This document shows positions 20,203 through 27,633 of a DNA stretch of 33,506 bases, piece by piece. Source of the DNA: Burkholderiales bacterium (GTDB taxonomy: Bacteria; Pseudomonadota; Gammaproteobacteria; Burkholderiales; Usitatibacteraceae). Location: positions 1 through 33,506 of the forward strand of contig JAFMJY010000015.1 in assembly GCA_017853245.1 (NCBI GenBank), read 5' to 3'. The stretch's first letter is position 1. Every line of letters starts with the position of its first letter. Made by a program: the position numbers and the translations under genes. Below the pieces are notes generated by a model. The model saw nothing but the letters and a program-made list of their open reading frames with translations, searched no databases and was not told where the DNA came from.

Positions 20203-21048
20203 TCAGATGCCCAGGCGCTGCCAAATCGTGCAGACGGGGCCCGCCTGGTTGAGCGTGTAGAAGTGCAAGCCCGGCGCGCCCATGGAAAGCAGGCGATCGC
20301 TCAACTGGGTCACCACGTCGAGGCCAAACGCCTTGATGGAGGCGGTGTCGTCGCCGAAGCTCTCCAGGCGCAAGCGCATCCAGCGCGGGATTTCGGCGCC
20401 GCACGCATCGGAGAAGCGGGCGAGCTGGGAGAAATTGGTGACCGGCATGATGCCCGGGACGACGGGCACGCGAACGCCGAGCGCCTCGATCGACTCGATG
20501 AAGCGCTCGTACGCATCAGCGTTGAAGAAATACTGGGTGATGGCGGAGTTGGCGCCCGCGTCGACTTTTTCCTTGAAATGCGCCAGGTCGTCGCCTGGCC
20601 GCCTCGCCTGGGGATGAAACTCGGGATAGGCCGCAACCTCGATGTGGAACCAATCGCCGGTCTCCTCACGAACGAAGCGCACCAGGTCTGCCGCGTAACG
20701 GAACTCCCCCGCCACGGCCATGCCGGACGGCAGGTCGCCACGCAGGCACACGAGCCTGCGCACGCCAGCGGCCTGATATTGCCTGAGCAAATCGGCGATG
20801 GCAGACCGTCGCGATCCCACGCAGGACAGGTGCGCTGCGGCGACTTGCCCTTCGGACTGGATGTCCAGGATGGTCGCCAGCGTCCCTTCCTGGGTGCTGC
20901 CGCCCGCGCCGAAGGTGCACGACATGAAAGCCGGCTTCAGCTGCGCCAGCTGGCGGCGGGTCTCACGCAGCTTGGCGCGGCCCTCGTCCGTTTTCGGAGG
21001 GAAGAATTCAAAACTGAAAAGGCGGGGGTGTCGGCGCTGCGAATCCAT
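20203..21048 (-). CDS. metF: Methylenetetrahydrofolate reductase
   Basis: FAD enzyme that reduces 5,10-methylenetetrahydrofolate to 5-methyltetrahydrofolate, the methyl donor for methionine synthesis. It has 281 residues, normal for bacterial MetF. The start region FSFEFFPPKTDEGRAKL contains the catalytic glutamate E14; MSCTFGAGGSTQEGTL, VCLRGDLPSG, and ITQYFFNADAYERFIE with VPVVPGIMPVTNFSQL are all family landmarks. The ATG at 21046-21048 follows GGGAGC. It lies 80 bases after ahcY on the same strand with a long hairpin in the gap, and both should be under the SAH riboswitch upstream of ahcY. Confidence 0.97.
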   Translation of the reverse strand: MDSQRRHPRLFSFEFFPPKTDEGRAKLRETRRQLAQLKPAFMSCTFGAGGSTQEGTLATILDIQSEGQVAAAHLSCVGSRRSAIADLLRQYQAAGVRRLVCLRGDLPSGMAVAGEFRYAADLVRFVREETGDWFHIEVAAYPEFHPQARRPGDDLAHFKEKVDAGANSAITQYFFNADAYERFIESIEALGVRVPVVPGIMPVTNFSQLARFSDACGAEIPRWMRLRLESFGDDTASIKAFGLDVVTQLSDRLLSMGAPGLHFYTLNQAGPVCTIWQRLGI

Positions 21049-21128: not shown

Positions 21129-22547
21129 CTAGTAGCGGTACATCTCCGGCTTGTACGGGCCTTCCTTGCGCACGCCGATGTAGCGAGCCTGCGCGTCGGA
21201 GAGCTCCGTGAGCTGGGCGCCCAGCTTCTTCAGCTGCAGTCTCGCCACCTTTTCATCGAGGTGCTTGGGCAGCACGTGCACGCCGATCGGGTAACGCTCC
21301 GGATTGTTGAAGAGCTCGATCTGGGCGATCACCTGGTTGGCGAACGAGGAGCTCATCACGTAGCTCGGATGGCCAGTGGCGCAACCCAGGTTCACCAGCC
21401 GGCCCTCGGCGAGCAGGATGATGCGCTTGCCGTCCGGGAAGATCACGTGGTCCACCTGGGGCTTGATGTTCTCCCACTTGCAGTCCTTGAGGGCCGCCAC
21501 GTCGATCTCGTTGTCGAAGTGCCCGATGTTGCACACGATCGCCTGGTCCTTCATGCGCTTCATGTGCTCGCTGGTGATGACGTGGAAGTTGCCCGTGGCA
21601 GTGACGAAGATGTCGGCCTTGTCAGCGGCGTAGTCCATGGTCACGACACGATAGCCTTCCATCGCCGCCTGCAAGGCACAGATGGGGTCGATCTCGGTGA
21701 CCCAGACCTGGGCCGAGAGCGCGCGCAACGCTTGCGCCGAGCCCTTGCCCACGTCGCCGTAGCCCGCCACCACCGCGACCTTGCCGGCGATCATGACGTC
21801 GGTGGCACGCTTGATGCCATCGACGAGGGACTCGCGGCAGCCGTAGAGGTTGTCGAACTTGCTCTTGGTCACCGAGTCGTTCACGTTGATCGCCGGGAAG
21901 TGCAGCAGCCCGTCCTTGGCCATCTGGTAGAGGCGCTTGACGCCGGTGGTGGTTTCCTCCGTCACGCCCTTCACGCGGGCGAGCCGCGTGGAATACCACT
22001 TGGCGTCTCGCGCCAGGGTGGCCTTGATCGACGCGAACAGGAAAGTCTCTTCCTCGCTGCCCGGGTTCTTGAGGACCGACGGGTCGGTTTCAGCGCGCGT
22101 GCCCAGGTGCAGCAGGAGCGTGGCGTCGCCGCCGTCGTCGAGGATCATGTTCGAGTAGCCACCGTCCGGCCACTCGAAGATGCGATGGGTGTAATCCCAG
22201 TACTCCTCCAGGGACTCGCCCTTCTTCGCAAACACCGCCGTGTCGCCAGCGGCGATGGCGGCGGCCGCGTGATCCTGGGTCGAGTAGATGTTGCAGGAGG
22301 CCCACCTCACCTCGGCGCCCAGCGCCTTGAGGGTCTCGATGAGCACGGCCGTCTGGATCGTCATGTGCAGCGATCCCGTGATGCGGGCCCCGCGCAGCGG
22401 CTGGGTGGCGGCGTACTCGTCCCGGATCGCCATCAGGCCGGGCATTTCGGTTTCGGCAATCGCGATTTCCTTGCGGCCCCAGTCGGCGAGCGCAAGGTCG
22501 GCCACGACGTAGTCGGGGCCGGTCTTCAGCTTGGGTACGGCGTTCAT
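21129..22547 (-). CDS. ahcY: S-adenosylhomocysteine hydrolase (adenosylhomocysteinase)
   Basis: NAD-dependent enzyme that splits S-adenosylhomocysteine into adenosine and homocysteine, removing the inhibitor left by methyltransferases. It has 472 residues, normal for the long bacterial form. Landmarks: [33 protein letters not shown], the substrate segment [20 protein letters not shown], the NAD-binding fingerprint [19 protein letters not shown], and the C-terminal KPEMYRY that reaches the NAD site of the neighbouring subunit. The ATG at 22545-22547 ([10 protein letters not shown]) with AAGGAG upstream was chosen; the frame extends to 22703 but that part is the riboswitch leader. First gene of ahcY-metF. 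Confidence 0.97.
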
Positions 22548-22551
22548 GAGC

Positions 22552-22619
22552 GTCACTCCTTGAATGGGTGACACGCCGCGGCAGGAAGATTCGCTCTCGC
22601 TGCCGTGGGCATGCCACGG
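22552..22619 (-). promoter_or_regulatory. ahcY leader: mutually exclusive hairpins and SD hairpin
   Basis: Between the SAH riboswitch and the ahcY ATG the minus-strand RNA can form hairpin A (arms 22619-22614 and 22608-22603, CCGUGG with CCACGG, 5-base loop) or hairpin B (22608-22600 with 22584-22576, CCACGGCAG with CUGCCGCGG, 8 of 9 paired). Both use 22603-22608, so they exclude each other. A third small hairpin (GUCAC/GUGAC arms at 22568-22572 and 22552-22556) holds the AAGGA ribosome site in its loop. The layout suggests an expression switch read out from the riboswitch; unproven, since no folding was computed. Confidence 0.5.
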
Positions 22620-22647
22620 ATCAACGAGCGCAGTTGGGAGGGAATCA

Positions 22648-22716
22648 CCCGAGCCTGGCGGGGAGGCCGGCACAGGCTTGGCTGCGCGGCGCACCCGTTG
22701 CAACGCTCCTCGGGGG
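22648..22716 (-). promoter_or_regulatory. SAH riboswitch upstream of ahcY-metF
   Basis: The minus-strand RNA contains CCCGAGGAGCGUUGCAACGG (22714-22695) and, at the 3' side, CCAGGCUCGGG (22658-22648). These are the two conserved halves of the S-adenosylhomocysteine riboswitch: P1 pairs CCCGAG with CUCGGG, and the GAGGAGCG-UUGCAAC and CCAGGCUCGG cores match the consensus I remember from Ralstonia and other betaproteobacteria. It lies about 100 bases before the ahcY start, exactly the gene it usually controls. Known SAH riboswitches turn expression on when SAH is bound. A candidate -10 (TACCAT) lies just upstream near 22727-22722. Confidence 0.93.
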
Positions 22717-22758
22717 CGCGAATGGTATCACGGCAGCGCGCGGGCCCGCAGTCCCCGC

Positions 22759-24672
22759 TCAGCGCACGTCGCTGGCCGCCACGACCCGGTTGCGCCCTTC
22801 GCGCTTGGCCGCATACAGGGCCTTGTCCGCCTCCTGGAGGACTCGGTCGATGCCCAGCCGGGCCAGCTCATCCGTGGTCGCAACGCCGATGCTCACGGTG
22901 ACGGTGAGGCTCTCCATCACCCCGTCCCGGCTGACCATCACCGGGGCCGCCGAGGCGGCCTCGCGAAGCTTTTCGGCCACATGCGCCCCCTGGCCCGCGC
23001 CGGTGTGGGGTAATACGACGCAGAACTCCTCGCCGCCCAGGCGCGCAAGCATGTCGGAAGCCCGGATCTCCGCAGCCCAGCGCTGGCTCATTTCCCGAAG
23101 GACCTCATCGCCGGCGGCATGCCCGTAGGTGTCGTTGATGCGCTTGAAGAAGTCGATGTCGAGGGACAGGACCGTGAACTTTTGCGGCCGGCCCGCCGCG
23201 CTCACGACCACCCGCTCGACAAAGGCCTCGAAGCCCCGGCGGTTGGCCGCGCGCGTGAGGGGATCCGAGTTCACCGACGTCGTGAGGTCACGGTTCGCCG
23301 TGGCGAGGTCCTCGCGAATCTGGCGCTCGCTCTCGAATTGCTCGGACAGGCGAATCGCCTCCGAGATGTCGGTGTAGTAGCCGACGTAGCGGCTGATGCG
23401 CCCCCAGGCATCCTTGAATGGGACGATGGTGGCGTTGACCCAGTACAGGCCTCCCGACTTGCTGCGGTCGCAAAGCGTGCCCTTCCAGATACGGCCGGCT
23501 CGCAGCGTCTGCCAGAGCTCCTCGTAGAACTCAGGGGGGTGCGCGCCCGAGCTCAACAGGCGATGGTTCCTGCCCACGAGCTCGGCTTCTGAATAGCCGC
23601 TGGCCGCCACGAAGGCGTCATTTACGCGGATGATGGTGCCGTCTGGCGAGGCCTCGCTCACCATCAGGTGAGCGCCGATGGCGCGCGCCTGGTTGGACGC
23701 CTCGATGACGGACTCCTCGTAGCGCAGGTAACCCCGATAGAGCAGGATCACCACGAGGACGATTATCGAGGCCACGCCGGCACAGACGTACAGGATCGTT
23801 CGCATCGACTCGGCGATGGCGGGGCCAACCCGGTCACGGTCGCCCACCACGGTGACGATCACGGGATGGCTGGCGCTCGCCCGATAGGCAACCATGAGGG
23901 AGGGGTGGTCGGCCGAGTTGTAAAACCCGATCGAGCGAGCGCTCGCCTGGCGAAGCAGCTCGGCACTGAACGCCCCTCCGGGTGGCACCACAGCATGGTG
24001 GGAAATGAGACGCCTGCCGCGATAGTCGTACAACCCAATTTCGGTCGCCGGGTCGTTGTCCAGCCGGGCCCAGAAGTTCTCGAACAGGCCCGGGTTGACC
24101 GCCACGACCCAATGGTAGGGTTTGCCCCGGCTCTCAACCCGCAGCGACGCGAGCCAGACCGAGGCGCCGGCGGACTTGCCGGCCCCGAGCTCACGCAGGT
24201 CGCGATAAGGGATGACGGCGCCGAAGGCGATCTCGCCTGCGCGGGCGGGTTGGCCTGGCGGCTGCGGAATCGCGTCGCCCGGTATCAGGGCGCCGATGTT
24301 GGCCGCCGAGGAGCTCGCCAGGACCCGCCCCAGGTCGTCCAGCAACGAGATGCTGCGGATGGCGCTGTCGTTGAGGATCAGGGCCTCGAGCGCCGGCGTC
24401 GTGGCGCTCGCCGCGTGGTTCGAGGGGTCTGCCACGGCAGCAATCGATCGCAGTCGCGCCGCGACGGTGTCGAGGGTGCGGGAGACGTGATCCTCGAGCA
24501 CGAGCGTGTCGACCTCGACCCGCGAGGCAAGCCCTGACTCCGCCCCGCTCACCAGCAGTTGGCGAGCCGCGAAATAGCTCATGACAACGAGCATCAGCGC
24601 GCCAAAAAAGAGGGCTGCGAAAATCAGCCGGAACTTGGCTGGCTCGATACGAAGGTCCAGTCCGACAGCCAC
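22759..24672 (-). CDS. Membrane diguanylate cyclase: periplasmic Cache-like sensor, PAS, GGDEF
   Basis: Protein of 637 residues predicted to make cyclic di-GMP. Order: membrane span about 15-36; a periplasmic Cache-type sensor about 40-285; a second span about 291-313; a PAS domain about 330-445 (RVNDAFVAASGYSEAELVGRNH, then GGLYWVNATIVPFKD); and a GGDEF domain about 470-630. The active-site motif is GGEEF at 546-550, an accepted functional variant, and the product-inhibition I-site RASD (537-540) is five residues before it, so a catalytically active, feedback-inhibited enzyme is likely. FFKRINDTYGHAAGDEVLRE is the substrate-binding segment. No EAL domain. The GTG at 24670-24672 starts only 2 bases after the stop of the periplasmic binding-protein gene, so the two are surely one transcript. 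Confidence 0.93.
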   Translation of the reverse strand: MAVGLDLRIEPAKFRLIFAALFFGALMLVVMSYFAARQLLVSGAESGLASRVEVDTLVLEDHVSRTLDTVAARLRSIAAVADPSNHAASATTPALEALILNDSAIRSISLLDDLGRVLASSSAANIGALIPGDAIPQPPGQPARAGEIAFGAVIPYRDLRELGAGKSAGASVWLASLRVESRGKPYHWVVAVNPGLFENFWARLDNDPATEIGLYDYRGRRLISHHAVVPPGGAFSAELLRQASARSIGFYNSADHPSLMVAYRASASHPVIVTVVGDRDRVGPAIAESMRTILYVCAGVASIIVLVVILLYRGYLRYEESVIEASNQARAIGAHLMVSEASPDGTIIRVNDAFVAASGYSEAELVGRNHRLLSSGAHPPEFYEELWQTLRAGRIWKGTLCDRSKSGGLYWVNATIVPFKDAWGRISRYVGYYTDISEAIRLSEQFESERQIREDLATANRDLTTSVNSDPLTRAANRRGFEAFVERVVVSAAGRPQKFTVLSLDIDFFKRINDTYGHAAGDEVLREMSQRWAAEIRASDMLARLGGEEFCVVLPHTGAGQGAHVAEKLREAASAAPVMVSRDGVMESLTVTVSIGVATTDELARLGIDRVLQEADKALYAAKREGRNRVVAASDVR

Positions 24673-24674
24673 CG

Positions 24675-25451
24675 TCAGTCCCTCACCAGGATGGGCAGGA
24701 GCCCGTGCCGTCGGGCGAAGGACTCCAGCGAGCCGTCACGCTTGGCGCGAGCGAGGAAAGCATCGACGCGTGCAAGCCACTGCGCCTCCCCCTTGCGAAC
24801 CGCGTAGGCAAAATCCATCGGGCGCACCGGCTGCGGCGGATCGATGACGCGCGCCCAGTCCGTGTTGGCGATGATCGCGCGGCTGTCGGAGTAGTCCGTG
24901 AGGAACACGTCGGCACGCCCGGCCTGCACGTCGCGCTCGCGGTCGCGGGCACGCAGCACGACCCGAAGCTCCGCCTGCCTGAAGGTGTCGCGCATGGCTG
25001 CCTCGATGACAGACCCCCTGAGCACCGTCACGACATGGCCTGGCCGGTCGATGTCTTCCCAGCGGCGCACGGAACTGTTGGCCACGGTGGTCACCGCGAA
25101 GACGTCGCTGCGAAGGTGGGGGCGGGTGAAGTCGGCTCGCGCGGCGCGCTGCGGCGTCACGACGAGACCCATCATCACGATGTGGCAGCGCCCGGCATCG
25201 AGGTCGTCCATTGCCCTGTCCAGCGTCGACTCCACAAGCTCGACGCGCACGCCCAATTCGGCCGCCAGTGCCCCCGACATGTCGACATCCAGCCCCTCGA
25301 GCACCCCGGTGCGGGCGTTGCGGTGGCTGATCCCGACATTGTCCGGCCACTGGCAGACGCGCAGCGCGCCGTCCCGACGCACGTGGTCGAGCACGCTTGC
25401 CTCAGCAGGGCCGACCAGCAAGAAACCGGCAATCGCGATGAAAAGGCGCAT
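24675..25451 (-). CDS. Family 3 periplasmic solute-binding protein without ABC transporter
   Basis: Exported protein of 258 residues of the bacterial extracellular solute-binding family 3 (amino-acid-binding type). Signal peptide MRLFIAIAGFLLVGPAEAS, cut near residue 19. Then LRVCQWPDNVGISHRNARTG, LEGLDVDMSGALAAELGVRV, VESTLDRAMDDLDAGRCHIVMMG, and the TPQRAARADFTRPH stretch, which is the typical core; the second lobe contains VLRGSVIEAAM and ADVFLTDYSDSRAI. The ATG at 25449-25451 (signal peptide start) was chosen over the longer frame to 25586, which overlaps the end of metK. No ABC permease or ATPase gene is nearby. It ends 2 bases before the Cache-PAS-GGDEF gene, so it may present a ligand to that sensor rather than to a transporter (inference). 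Confidence 0.88.
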   Translation of the reverse strand: MRLFIAIAGFLLVGPAEASVLDHVRRDGALRVCQWPDNVGISHRNARTGVLEGLDVDMSGALAAELGVRVELVESTLDRAMDDLDAGRCHIVMMGLVVTPQRAARADFTRPHLRSDVFAVTTVANSSVRRWEDIDRPGHVVTVLRGSVIEAAMRDTFRQAELRVVLRARDRERDVQAGRADVFLTDYSDSRAIIANTDWARVIDPPQPVRPMDFAYAVRKGEAQWLARVDAFLARAKRDGSLESFARRHGLLPILVRD

Positions 25452-25478
25452 GGGGCTGGCCCCCTTGGGAAACCCATC

Positions 25479-25498
25479 GGGGCGGCCGCAGCCACCCC
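25479..25498 (-). repeat. Hairpin after metK
   Basis: Inverted repeat with 8-bp arms (25479-25486 and 25491-25498, including one G-U pair in the minus-strand RNA) around a UGCG loop, 6 bases past the metK stop codon and 27 bases before the binding-protein ATG. No U-tract follows, so it may be a weak terminator or mRNA-end protector separating metK from the sensor operon. Confidence 0.5.
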
Positions 25499-25504
25499 AT
25501 CTGC

Positions 25505-26698
25505 TCAAGCCCGGGGCGCAGCGGGCGGCGGCCCCTTCAGGCCGGCGACCTCTCGCAACATGGCAGCCTTGTCCGTCGCTTCCCACAGGAACTCCGGCTC
25601 CTCACGGCCGAAATGCCCGTAGGCCGCGGTCTTCTCGTAGATCGGGCGAAGCAGGTCCAGCATGGTGACGATGCCCTTGGGACGGAGGTCGAAGTGCTCC
25701 TCCACCAGCTTGGCAATCTTTTCATCGGGGATCGCCCCGGTGCCTTCAGTATAGACAGTGACGTTGATCGGACGGGCGACGCCAATGGCATACGAAAGCT
25801 GAATCTGGCACTGCCGAGCGAGCCCCGCGGCCACGACGTTCTTCGCCACGTAGCGGGCGGCGTAGGCTGCCGACCGGTCCACCTTCGACGGGTCCTTGCC
25901 CGAAAATGCGCCGCCACCGTGAGGGCAAGCGCCGCCGTAGGTGTCCACGATGATCTTGCGGCCGGTAAGGCCGCAATCGCCCTGCGGCCCGCCGACGACG
26001 AATCGGCCGCTCGGGTTCACGAGATATTTGGTGCCCTTGAGCATGTCCTTGGGCAGGACCGGCTGGATGACCATTTCGATCACCGCCTCCTTGATCTGCT
26101 CCTGGGACACGTCCGGGGCATGCTGGGTCGACAGGACGACGGTGTCGATGGCGACCGGGCGGCCGCCCTCGTAGCGCATGGTGATCTGGCTCTTCGCATC
26201 GGGGCGCAACCACGGCAGGCGGCCGTCCTTGCGAAGCTGCGACTGGCGCTCCACGAGGCGATGCGAGTAGTAGATCGGCGCCGGCATCAGCACCGGTGTC
26301 TCGTCGCAGGCGTACCCGAACATCAACCCCTGGTCGCCCGCGCCCTGGTTGAGGTATTCGTCTGAGGCGTGGTCGACTGCCGCCTTGATGTCCGGGCTCT
26401 GCTTGTCGTAGCACACCATGACGGCACAACCCTTGTAGTCGATGCCGTACTCGGTATTGTCGTAGCCGATGCGCTTGATGACGTCGCGAGCCACCTGGAT
26501 GTAGTCCACGGTCGCGTGGGTCGTGATCTCGCCCGCCATCACCACGAGGCCGGTGTTGCAGAGCGTTTCGGCAGCGACGCGGGAGCGCGGGTCCTGGGCT
26601 AGAATCGCGTCGAGCACCGCATCCGAGATCTGGTCGGCCACCTTGTCGGGATGGCCCTCGGAAACGGACTCCGACGTAAAGAGGTAATCGGTTTTCAT
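25505..26698 (-). CDS. metK: S-adenosylmethionine synthetase
   Basis: Makes S-adenosylmethionine from methionine and ATP. It has 397 residues, normal for the family. Landmarks: [20 protein letters not shown] at the start with the ATP-site histidine; [16 protein letters not shown]; the [16 protein letters not shown] segment; and [19 protein letters not shown], the phosphate-binding loop. The ATG at 26696-26698 (MKTDYLF) is the usual family start. It is divergent from the lipid A acyltransferase genes across a 77-base gap in which I see no convincing promoter. With ahcY and metF 3-6 kb away it covers three steps of the methyl cycle. Confidence 0.98.
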
Positions 26699-26775
26699 TT
26701 GCGCTGTCTCCCGCCCACGGCCGGTCAAAGCCCGCAAGTGTAGCAACCTTTCGCCGCCGGACTCCCTCTCCTTCC

Positions 26776-27633
26776 GTGAAACCCTTGCTCCGCCTGCTCG
26801 CGTGGCTCAGCCTCGGCGCCAACCAACGGCTTGGCGCCGCAGCGGGACGAATCGCCTTTCTCCTGTCGGCCCGGCTGCGCGCAACGGCAGCCGAGAATCT
26901 CGCCAAAGCCGGGTTCGACAGCCGCGCGCTGCTTCCTCAAAACGCCCGCCACATGGGCATGGGCGCATCCGAACTCGCCTGGGCACTGCTGCGGCCGATC
27001 GATTCCGTCACCGCGCTGGTGAAAGACGTCGACGGCTGGGATGCGGTCGAGCGATTGCGCAGCGCGAACCGGCCCATCCTCTTCATCACCCCACACTTGG
27101 GGGGCTATGACGTGGCGGGCCGCTGGCTGTGGTCTCGGCTGCCCGTGCTCGCGATGTATCGGCCGCACAAGAATGCGCAGCTCGACGAGCTCATCCGCGA
27201 GGGCCGCAACCGTGGCGCAGCGCCGGACGGAACCAATGTCGCCCCGGCCAACCGAGCGGGCGTGCGCATGCTGCTCACTCACCTTCGCCACGGCGGCTGC
27301 TCCATCGTGCTGCCTGACCAGGTTCCTGGCGTCGGCGAGGGCGAGTGGGTGGACTTCTTCGGCCGGCAGGCCTACACGATGACCCTGCCCGGCCGGCTGC
27401 AGCGGGCAACCGGCGCCGTGGTCGTCTTCTGTTTCGCGCAACGCTTGCCTGACGCCGCCGGCTTCCGCATGGTTTTCCGCGTGCGCGAGGAGCCGTTACC
27501 GGAGGACCGCGCGCTCGCCGCCCAAGCGGTCAACGAAGGCGTCGAGGCCCTGGTCCGGATCGCACCCGAGCAGTACCTGTGGGCCTACAACCGTTACAAG
27601 CGCCCCGCGGGCGCCCCGCCTGCGCCCCGATGA
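26776..27633 (+). CDS. Lipid A biosynthesis acyltransferase (LpxL/HtrB family), first copy
   Basis: Inner-membrane late acyltransferase of lipid A synthesis, transferring a secondary acyl chain from acyl-ACP. It has 285 residues. The catalytic HX4D/E motif is HLGGYD (H107 to D112) in [15 protein letters not shown]; the second-domain landmarks are [47 protein letters not shown] and [12 protein letters not shown]. An N-terminal hydrophobic segment anchors it. The GTG at 26776 is the only start that keeps the N-terminus, but no ribosome site precedes it (pyrimidine-rich), so the start is less sure. It ends in an ATGA overlap with a second, diverged acyltransferase gene. Confidence 0.9.

Follow-up and report, generated by a model that had tools for sequence, protein, structure and literature searches.

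LuxP and LuxQ form a pair in which a soluble solute-binding protein (SBP) drives a membrane sensor kinase. NspS and MbaA, described in Vibrio cholerae and Sinorhizobium meliloti, are a pair in which the ligand-loaded SBP acts on the periplasmic domain of a membrane c-di-GMP enzyme (as summarized in PMC8079147 and PMC9993111). In Vibrio parahaemolyticus, ScrB contacts ScrC (PMC11315295), and the suggestion in the first-pass annotation of the locus reported here that similar pairs exist agrees with these published summaries of NspS-MbaA and ScrB-ScrC. SBP-driven receptors have been presented as general and widespread (PMC9602780), and of 11 SBP-kinase couples characterised, 10 are encoded by neighbouring genes (as outlined in PMC11113362). 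The same outline reports a lack of interaction for sbp genes located near the AgtS and AruS kinases, so adjacency is not proof of a link between an SBP and a receptor. Among the titles and abstract openings listed by searches of open-licence papers, none dealt with the SBP-dCache pairing examined here.

The window (the whole 33,506-nucleotide stretch of DNA that was analysed) contains an SBP gene followed by a gene for a dCache-PAS-GGDEF protein (Table 1). A binding protein two bases ahead of a Cache-PAS-GGDEF cyclase had been proposed from the sequence, and the coordinates were found to be right by open reading frames, Pfam and fold matches; the gap between the SBP stop and the GTG of the cyclase is exactly 2 bases. 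The minus-strand order is metK, SBP, cyclase, S-adenosylhomocysteine (SAH) riboswitch, ahcY and metF. A search of 22550-26800 gave no sigma-70-like promoter and one terminator-like site, against 2.3 expected by chance. The lack of transporter genes by the SBP also held for the one transporter family searched, PF00528, with none of the 47 permease matches of the genome falling on the window contig (C194).

Table 1. Features of the SBP-cyclase locus and its surroundings, in window coordinates
Feature	Coordinates	Strand	Remarks
SBP gene P0001 (SBP_bac_3)	25451-24675	minus	258 aa; ATG at 25451, stop 24677-24675
Cyclase gene P0002 (dCache-PAS-GGDEF)	24672-22759	minus	637 aa; GTG at 24672, stop at 22759
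Cyclase N-terminal sensor region, residues 1-335	23668..24672	minus	long helix, dCache domain, long helix; AlphaFold2 model and Foldseek
metK (S-adenosylmethionine synthetase)	25505..26677	minus	start approximate; 53 bases upstream of SBP
SAH riboswitch RF01057	22619..22717	minus	55.6 bits (gathering 37); 41 bases past cyclase stop, ahead of ahcY
ahcY (S-adenosylhomocysteinase)	21129..22547	minus	start chosen by reading
metF (methylenetetrahydrofolate reductase)	20203..21048	minus	

Pfam assigned PAS and GGDEF (142 bits) domains to the cyclase, with no EAL match and, in residues 1-335, no match to a Cache family at E 0.01. An AlphaFold2 model of this sensor region, built from an alignment of 10 sensors (pLDDT 82.4), matched 3lif best in Foldseek (TMt 0.73, TMq 0.55, E about 1e-12), followed by DctB and others; dCache and similar sensor domains make up most of the leading PDB matches, in keeping with a tandem of PAS-like folds in the periplasm flanked by two TM helices, and because of these matches the label "Cache" is right. 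The intact I-site and GGEEF motif noted at first pass are both present, with GGEEF at residue 546 and RASD (an RxxD I-site) 5 residues before it, and from these motifs the protein is predicted to be an active diguanylate cyclase. We consider it likely that the two genes encode one receptor, in which the ligand-loaded SBP docks on the dCache domain and changes c-di-GMP synthesis. The SBP would be exported to the periplasm, bind a small molecule that is probably amino-acid-like, and dock on the dCache domain that the cyclase exposes to the periplasm. The resulting change in dCache would then pass through the membrane helix and PAS to GGDEF, altering c-di-GMP synthesis in one direction or the other, and product inhibition at the I-site would limit the output.

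A profile of 14 aligned SBPs was run against a sample of 399 genomes from the order, taking at most the best seven candidates per genome. The SBP subfamily was found in 19 of these genomes (own included), at 342-415 bits with the next best at 140, and the 19 span 13 genus codes. It was also found in 3 of 369 genomes of a class sample and 6 of 398 of a phylum sample (own included in both; 3 of the 6 were already in the order sample). Judged by these scores, the window SBP is a member of a discrete subfamily. The genome samples, with 14 loci from a genome-contig search, gave 36 related loci besides the window. A membrane signalling gene adjoins the SBP gene in 32 of the 36, downstream on the same strand in 30 and divergent in 2. 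When the start is set at the first ATG, GTG or TTG in a scan that begins 20 bases ahead of the SBP stop, 29 of the 30 downstream partners begin within 30 bases and 12 overlap the SBP gene by 4 bases. Histidine kinases account for 21 of the 32 partners (10 assigned by Pfam, the rest by motif, reading or near-identity), GGDEF-EAL proteins for 6 (L116, L123, L124, L126, L128 and L140, by Pfam) and GGDEF proteins for 3 (L118, L131 and L132, by Pfam); GGDEF-type partners of either kind thus occur at L131 and at eight other loci, in one of which the partner is divergent. The other 2 have no assigned class: the L050 partner has PAS domains only, and that of L117 is cut by a contig end. Counted among the kinases are those of L040 and L045, which by reading have a different multi-helix sensor and no large sensor, respectively, and the loci include two sets of near copies (L042/L043 and L121/L122). 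The four loci with no called partner comprise L047, at a contig end with weak partner matches just past the SBP; L119, at a contig end with a kinase directly upstream; L052, where no partner is adjacent and GGDEF-like matches lie on the opposite strand some 2.7 kb upstream; and L120, where no partner is adjacent and a close sensor with a kinase motif lies on another contig of the genome.

Chance adjacency is ruled out by the partner genes in 32 of 36 loci and by the presence of close sensors in SBP-bearing genomes (below). The partnership of SBP and sensor recurs while the output enzyme varies, which is a new point, and this recurrence, often with a different signalling enzyme, indicates that the SBP is probably the ligand detector of the cyclase. 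A two-protein sensor had been the original interpretation of the locus; its pairing gains support from the conserved neighbourhood, and docking stays a prediction. A gene of HD-GYP type lies just upstream of the SBP gene at eight loci (L039, L044, L045, L046, L048, L050, L115 and L117; 5 of the 8 genes were checked by Pfam as HD_5), with a REC match ahead in six and a kinase as SBP partner in six. Some kinase versions therefore also point to c-di-GMP.

The sensor was searched separately in the order sample, scoring at most the best five candidates per genome. Among these, 19 matches of at least 200 bits were found in 18 of the 399 genomes, all of them within the 19 SBP-bearing genomes; in the nineteenth (G195), the SBP borders a contig end and a fragment of a sensor is on a different contig. 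In G078 the close sensor and the SBP are on different contigs. G157 has a second close sensor of the same dCache type (L188, 3222-5101), which follows a lone REC gene and is truncated at a contig end, with no SBP match beside it in the stretch fetched. Since neighbours of the SBP served to build the sensor model, the co-occurrence is partly circular; for this reason, and given the limit of five candidates per genome, its Fisher value is not an unbiased probability. When each was left out in turn, the tested order-sample partners scored 138-313 bits versus 132 for the best listed sensor in an SBP-less genome; L140 and L142, from outside the order sample, scored 119 and 128, inside the range of SBP-less sensors. 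Distances among SBPs and among sensors correlated with r 0.74 over 30 pairs (L040, L045 and L051 left out), a value inflated by shared ancestry, and the highest of 2000 permutations was 0.27. A separate search gave three plasmid records; in the two from Azospirillum, a dCache hybrid kinase is divergent from the SBP gene, and the sensors score 170 and 156 bits though absent from the sensor model. Of 11 more distant SBPs, which score 109-140 bits, 8 were inspected, and none has a neighbouring sensor of this kind.

These data bear on an alternative in which the two genes are co-transcribed and their products work separately, the SBP serving a distant transporter or buffering ligand and the dCache domain binding a small molecule directly. 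Many of the dCache domains listed by the fold search have directly bound ligands, and more weakly related sensors are widespread, also where the SBP is absent, with a match at E 1e-12 in 126 of 399 genomes. The wider SBP family also includes a transporter SBP: the third plasmid record is a Methylobacterium homologue (35% identical SBP) in an amino acid ABC transporter operon. AgtS and AruS further illustrate that nearby sbp and kinase genes may be unlinked (outline of PMC11113362). Against separate working, no PF00528 permease lies beside the pair, the order sample shows the pairing in 13 genus codes, retained through changes of output enzyme, and close sensors, among the matches listed, occur in that sample only in SBP-bearing genomes. 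We regard separate working as unlikely.

Recurring SBP-cyclase neighbours, which the first-pass annotation named as the thing to look for, do occur. The closest relative of the window pair is L131, in the genome of another family, where the SBP is about 50% identical and separated by a 5-base gap from a dCache-PAS-GGDEF cyclase that is 43.6% identical over window residues 8-632 (the partner was found by tblastn, and its open reading frame starts a long way ahead of the SBP stop). The SBP-cyclase pairs of L131 and the window are orthologous, and the pairing is conserved. In a joined SBP and sensor tree of 31 rows, which left out L040, L045, L051, L117 and the partnerless L047, L052, L119 and L120, L131 is the sister of the window (support 100/100). 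At least 6 changes between kinase and c-di-GMP output are required on this tree, and its starred branches force 4 changes in the kinase label.

The window SBP matches Pfam SBP_bac_3 (PF00497) at 75.9 bits (cut-off 26.4), and its N-terminus reads like a signal peptide without Cys. Its AlphaFold2 model (pLDDT 89.4) matched AncCDT-1 best (5t0w, TMt 0.91), a protein titled ancestral amino acid-binding protein, and among solved structures the nearest are ancestral forms of cyclohexadienyl dehydratase together with the binding protein from which they descend. C33, W35, R44, C89 and R102 are invariant in the alignment of 14 SBPs and in all 35 family rows. The window SBP departs from the family at 23 of 81 conserved columns, the consensus having left out L050, L131 and L200; L050 departs further, at 35 of 81. 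The changes include Y38N and F77L, where Y38 and F77 are each found in 35 of 35 family rows and align with a Tyr and a Trp of AncCDT-1. We take these two to be ligand-stacking residues that likely lie in the cleft, and the departures there mean that a ligand cannot be transferred from relatives, for which none is reported in the portions of the literature searched. R102 and D186 are kept and align with residues that we assume make the usual amino acid contacts, Arg with the alpha-carboxylate and Asp with the alpha-amino group.

The same changes could be read as loss of ligand binding, leaving the SBP as a constitutive periplasmic subunit that fixes the state of the cyclase or reports another cue. 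In addition to the 23 changed columns, with N38 and L77 among them, the SBP branch is long (1.48, exceeded only by L050 in an SBP tree that left out the partial L051). Retention of R102 and D186 argues against such a loss, as does the retention of Y38 and F77 in the sister L131, and we find it improbable. The reading of the SBP as an enzyme like cyclohexadienyl dehydratase, making or removing the signal, was rejected as highly improbable despite the ancestral dehydratases among its closest structures, as the best match is titled an amino acid-binding protein and the position that we take to hold the catalytic Glu is Asp in the window SBP and Tyr in most relatives.

The neighbouring metK and ahcY hint at a methyl-cycle ligand. 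Such a ligand is unsupported: at E 1e-8, tblastn detected neither metK nor ahcY nor metF near the related SBP pairs in the 36 loci, and same-genus metK-ahcY intervals lack the pair. Among SAH riboswitch loci of related genomes (n=30, own included), metK and ahcY were both present in 16, these being short stretches. Nine longer stretches gave no match to the SBP or the cyclase at E 1e-5; seven contain both metK and ahcY, L149 contains the metK end only, and L154 has no metK match. In the genus of the window genome, the interval measures 0.8-3.9 kb with no SBP or cyclase match (G002, G005, G006 and G007; G001 has the metK end only), and SBP matches in the seven same-genus genomes are weak at most (best E 4e-10). 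The methyl-cycle location is therefore, as far as seen, peculiar to the window genome. Across close relatives (L149-L157) the interval differs in gene content as well as in length, which suggests a place that accepts insertions.

The window genome (98.7% complete, 202 contigs) encodes two GGDEF proteins by Pfam, one being the window cyclase, no EAL protein, and two HD_5 proteins above the cut-off. The other GGDEF protein (L201 2228-3229, G000 contig 56) has 333 aa and, by reading, no evident membrane segment; its gene faces one that reads like a LuxR-type regulator. Elsewhere, a 1012-aa open frame (L003, G000 contig 145, 11401-13812) contains four SBP_bac_3 matches in a row, which may form a tandem sensor region in a large receptor. 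Since the c-di-GMP inventory is very small, removal of the SBP should give a readable effect, which makes this genome a tractable test case. More tentatively, and with the balance somewhat against it, SBP-dCache may be a portable input cassette that has been swapped repeatedly (at least 6 changes) between kinases and c-di-GMP enzymes, and 6 of the 21 kinase versions may likewise be directed at c-di-GMP by way of a neighbouring HD-GYP gene; the window version, set between metK and the riboswitch-preceded ahcY, would then be the main envelope input of a two-cyclase network, its cleft altered for a different ligand.

Many c-di-GMP enzymes lack known ligands and partners, and the SBP-dCache family offers a natural comparison. 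Homologous inputs stand before kinases or cyclases, so input and output can be separated for study, and the prevalence of histidine kinases among the partners of the window SBP's relatives goes beyond what a single locus reveals. The best reading, made by analogy, is that the window most likely encodes an SBP-gated cyclase working like NspS-MbaA and ScrB-ScrC. As in NspS-MbaA, the SBP gene lies immediately upstream of that of a membrane c-di-GMP enzyme; compared by description, MbaA is a GGDEF-EAL protein responding to a polyamine, whereas the window has GGDEF only and an SBP_bac_3 protein (PMC8079147 and PMC9993111, in summary). The NspS-MbaA family proper has a GGDEF-EAL partner, and the PAS and GGDEF protein of the window falls outside it. 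The resemblance to ScrABC lies in an operon that combines a periplasmic binding protein with a c-di-GMP enzyme; there, the aminotransferase ScrA makes the signal and, by description, ScrC has both cyclase and phosphodiesterase activity, unlike the window cyclase and its metK and ahcY neighbours (summary of PMC11315295). RmcA of Pseudomonas aeruginosa also feeds a c-di-GMP enzyme from an SBP_bac_3 domain, but within one protein, whereas the window SBP is separate (PMC8846402). LuxP-LuxQ and BctC-BctE (the latter as outlined in PMC9602780) share the soluble SBP driving a membrane receptor. Unlike such SBP-sensor kinase pairs, the window has GGDEF in place of the kinase, so no phosphorelay is needed. 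What is new here is that the known principle of an SBP-gated enzyme appears with an output that varies between GGDEF, GGDEF-EAL and kinase.
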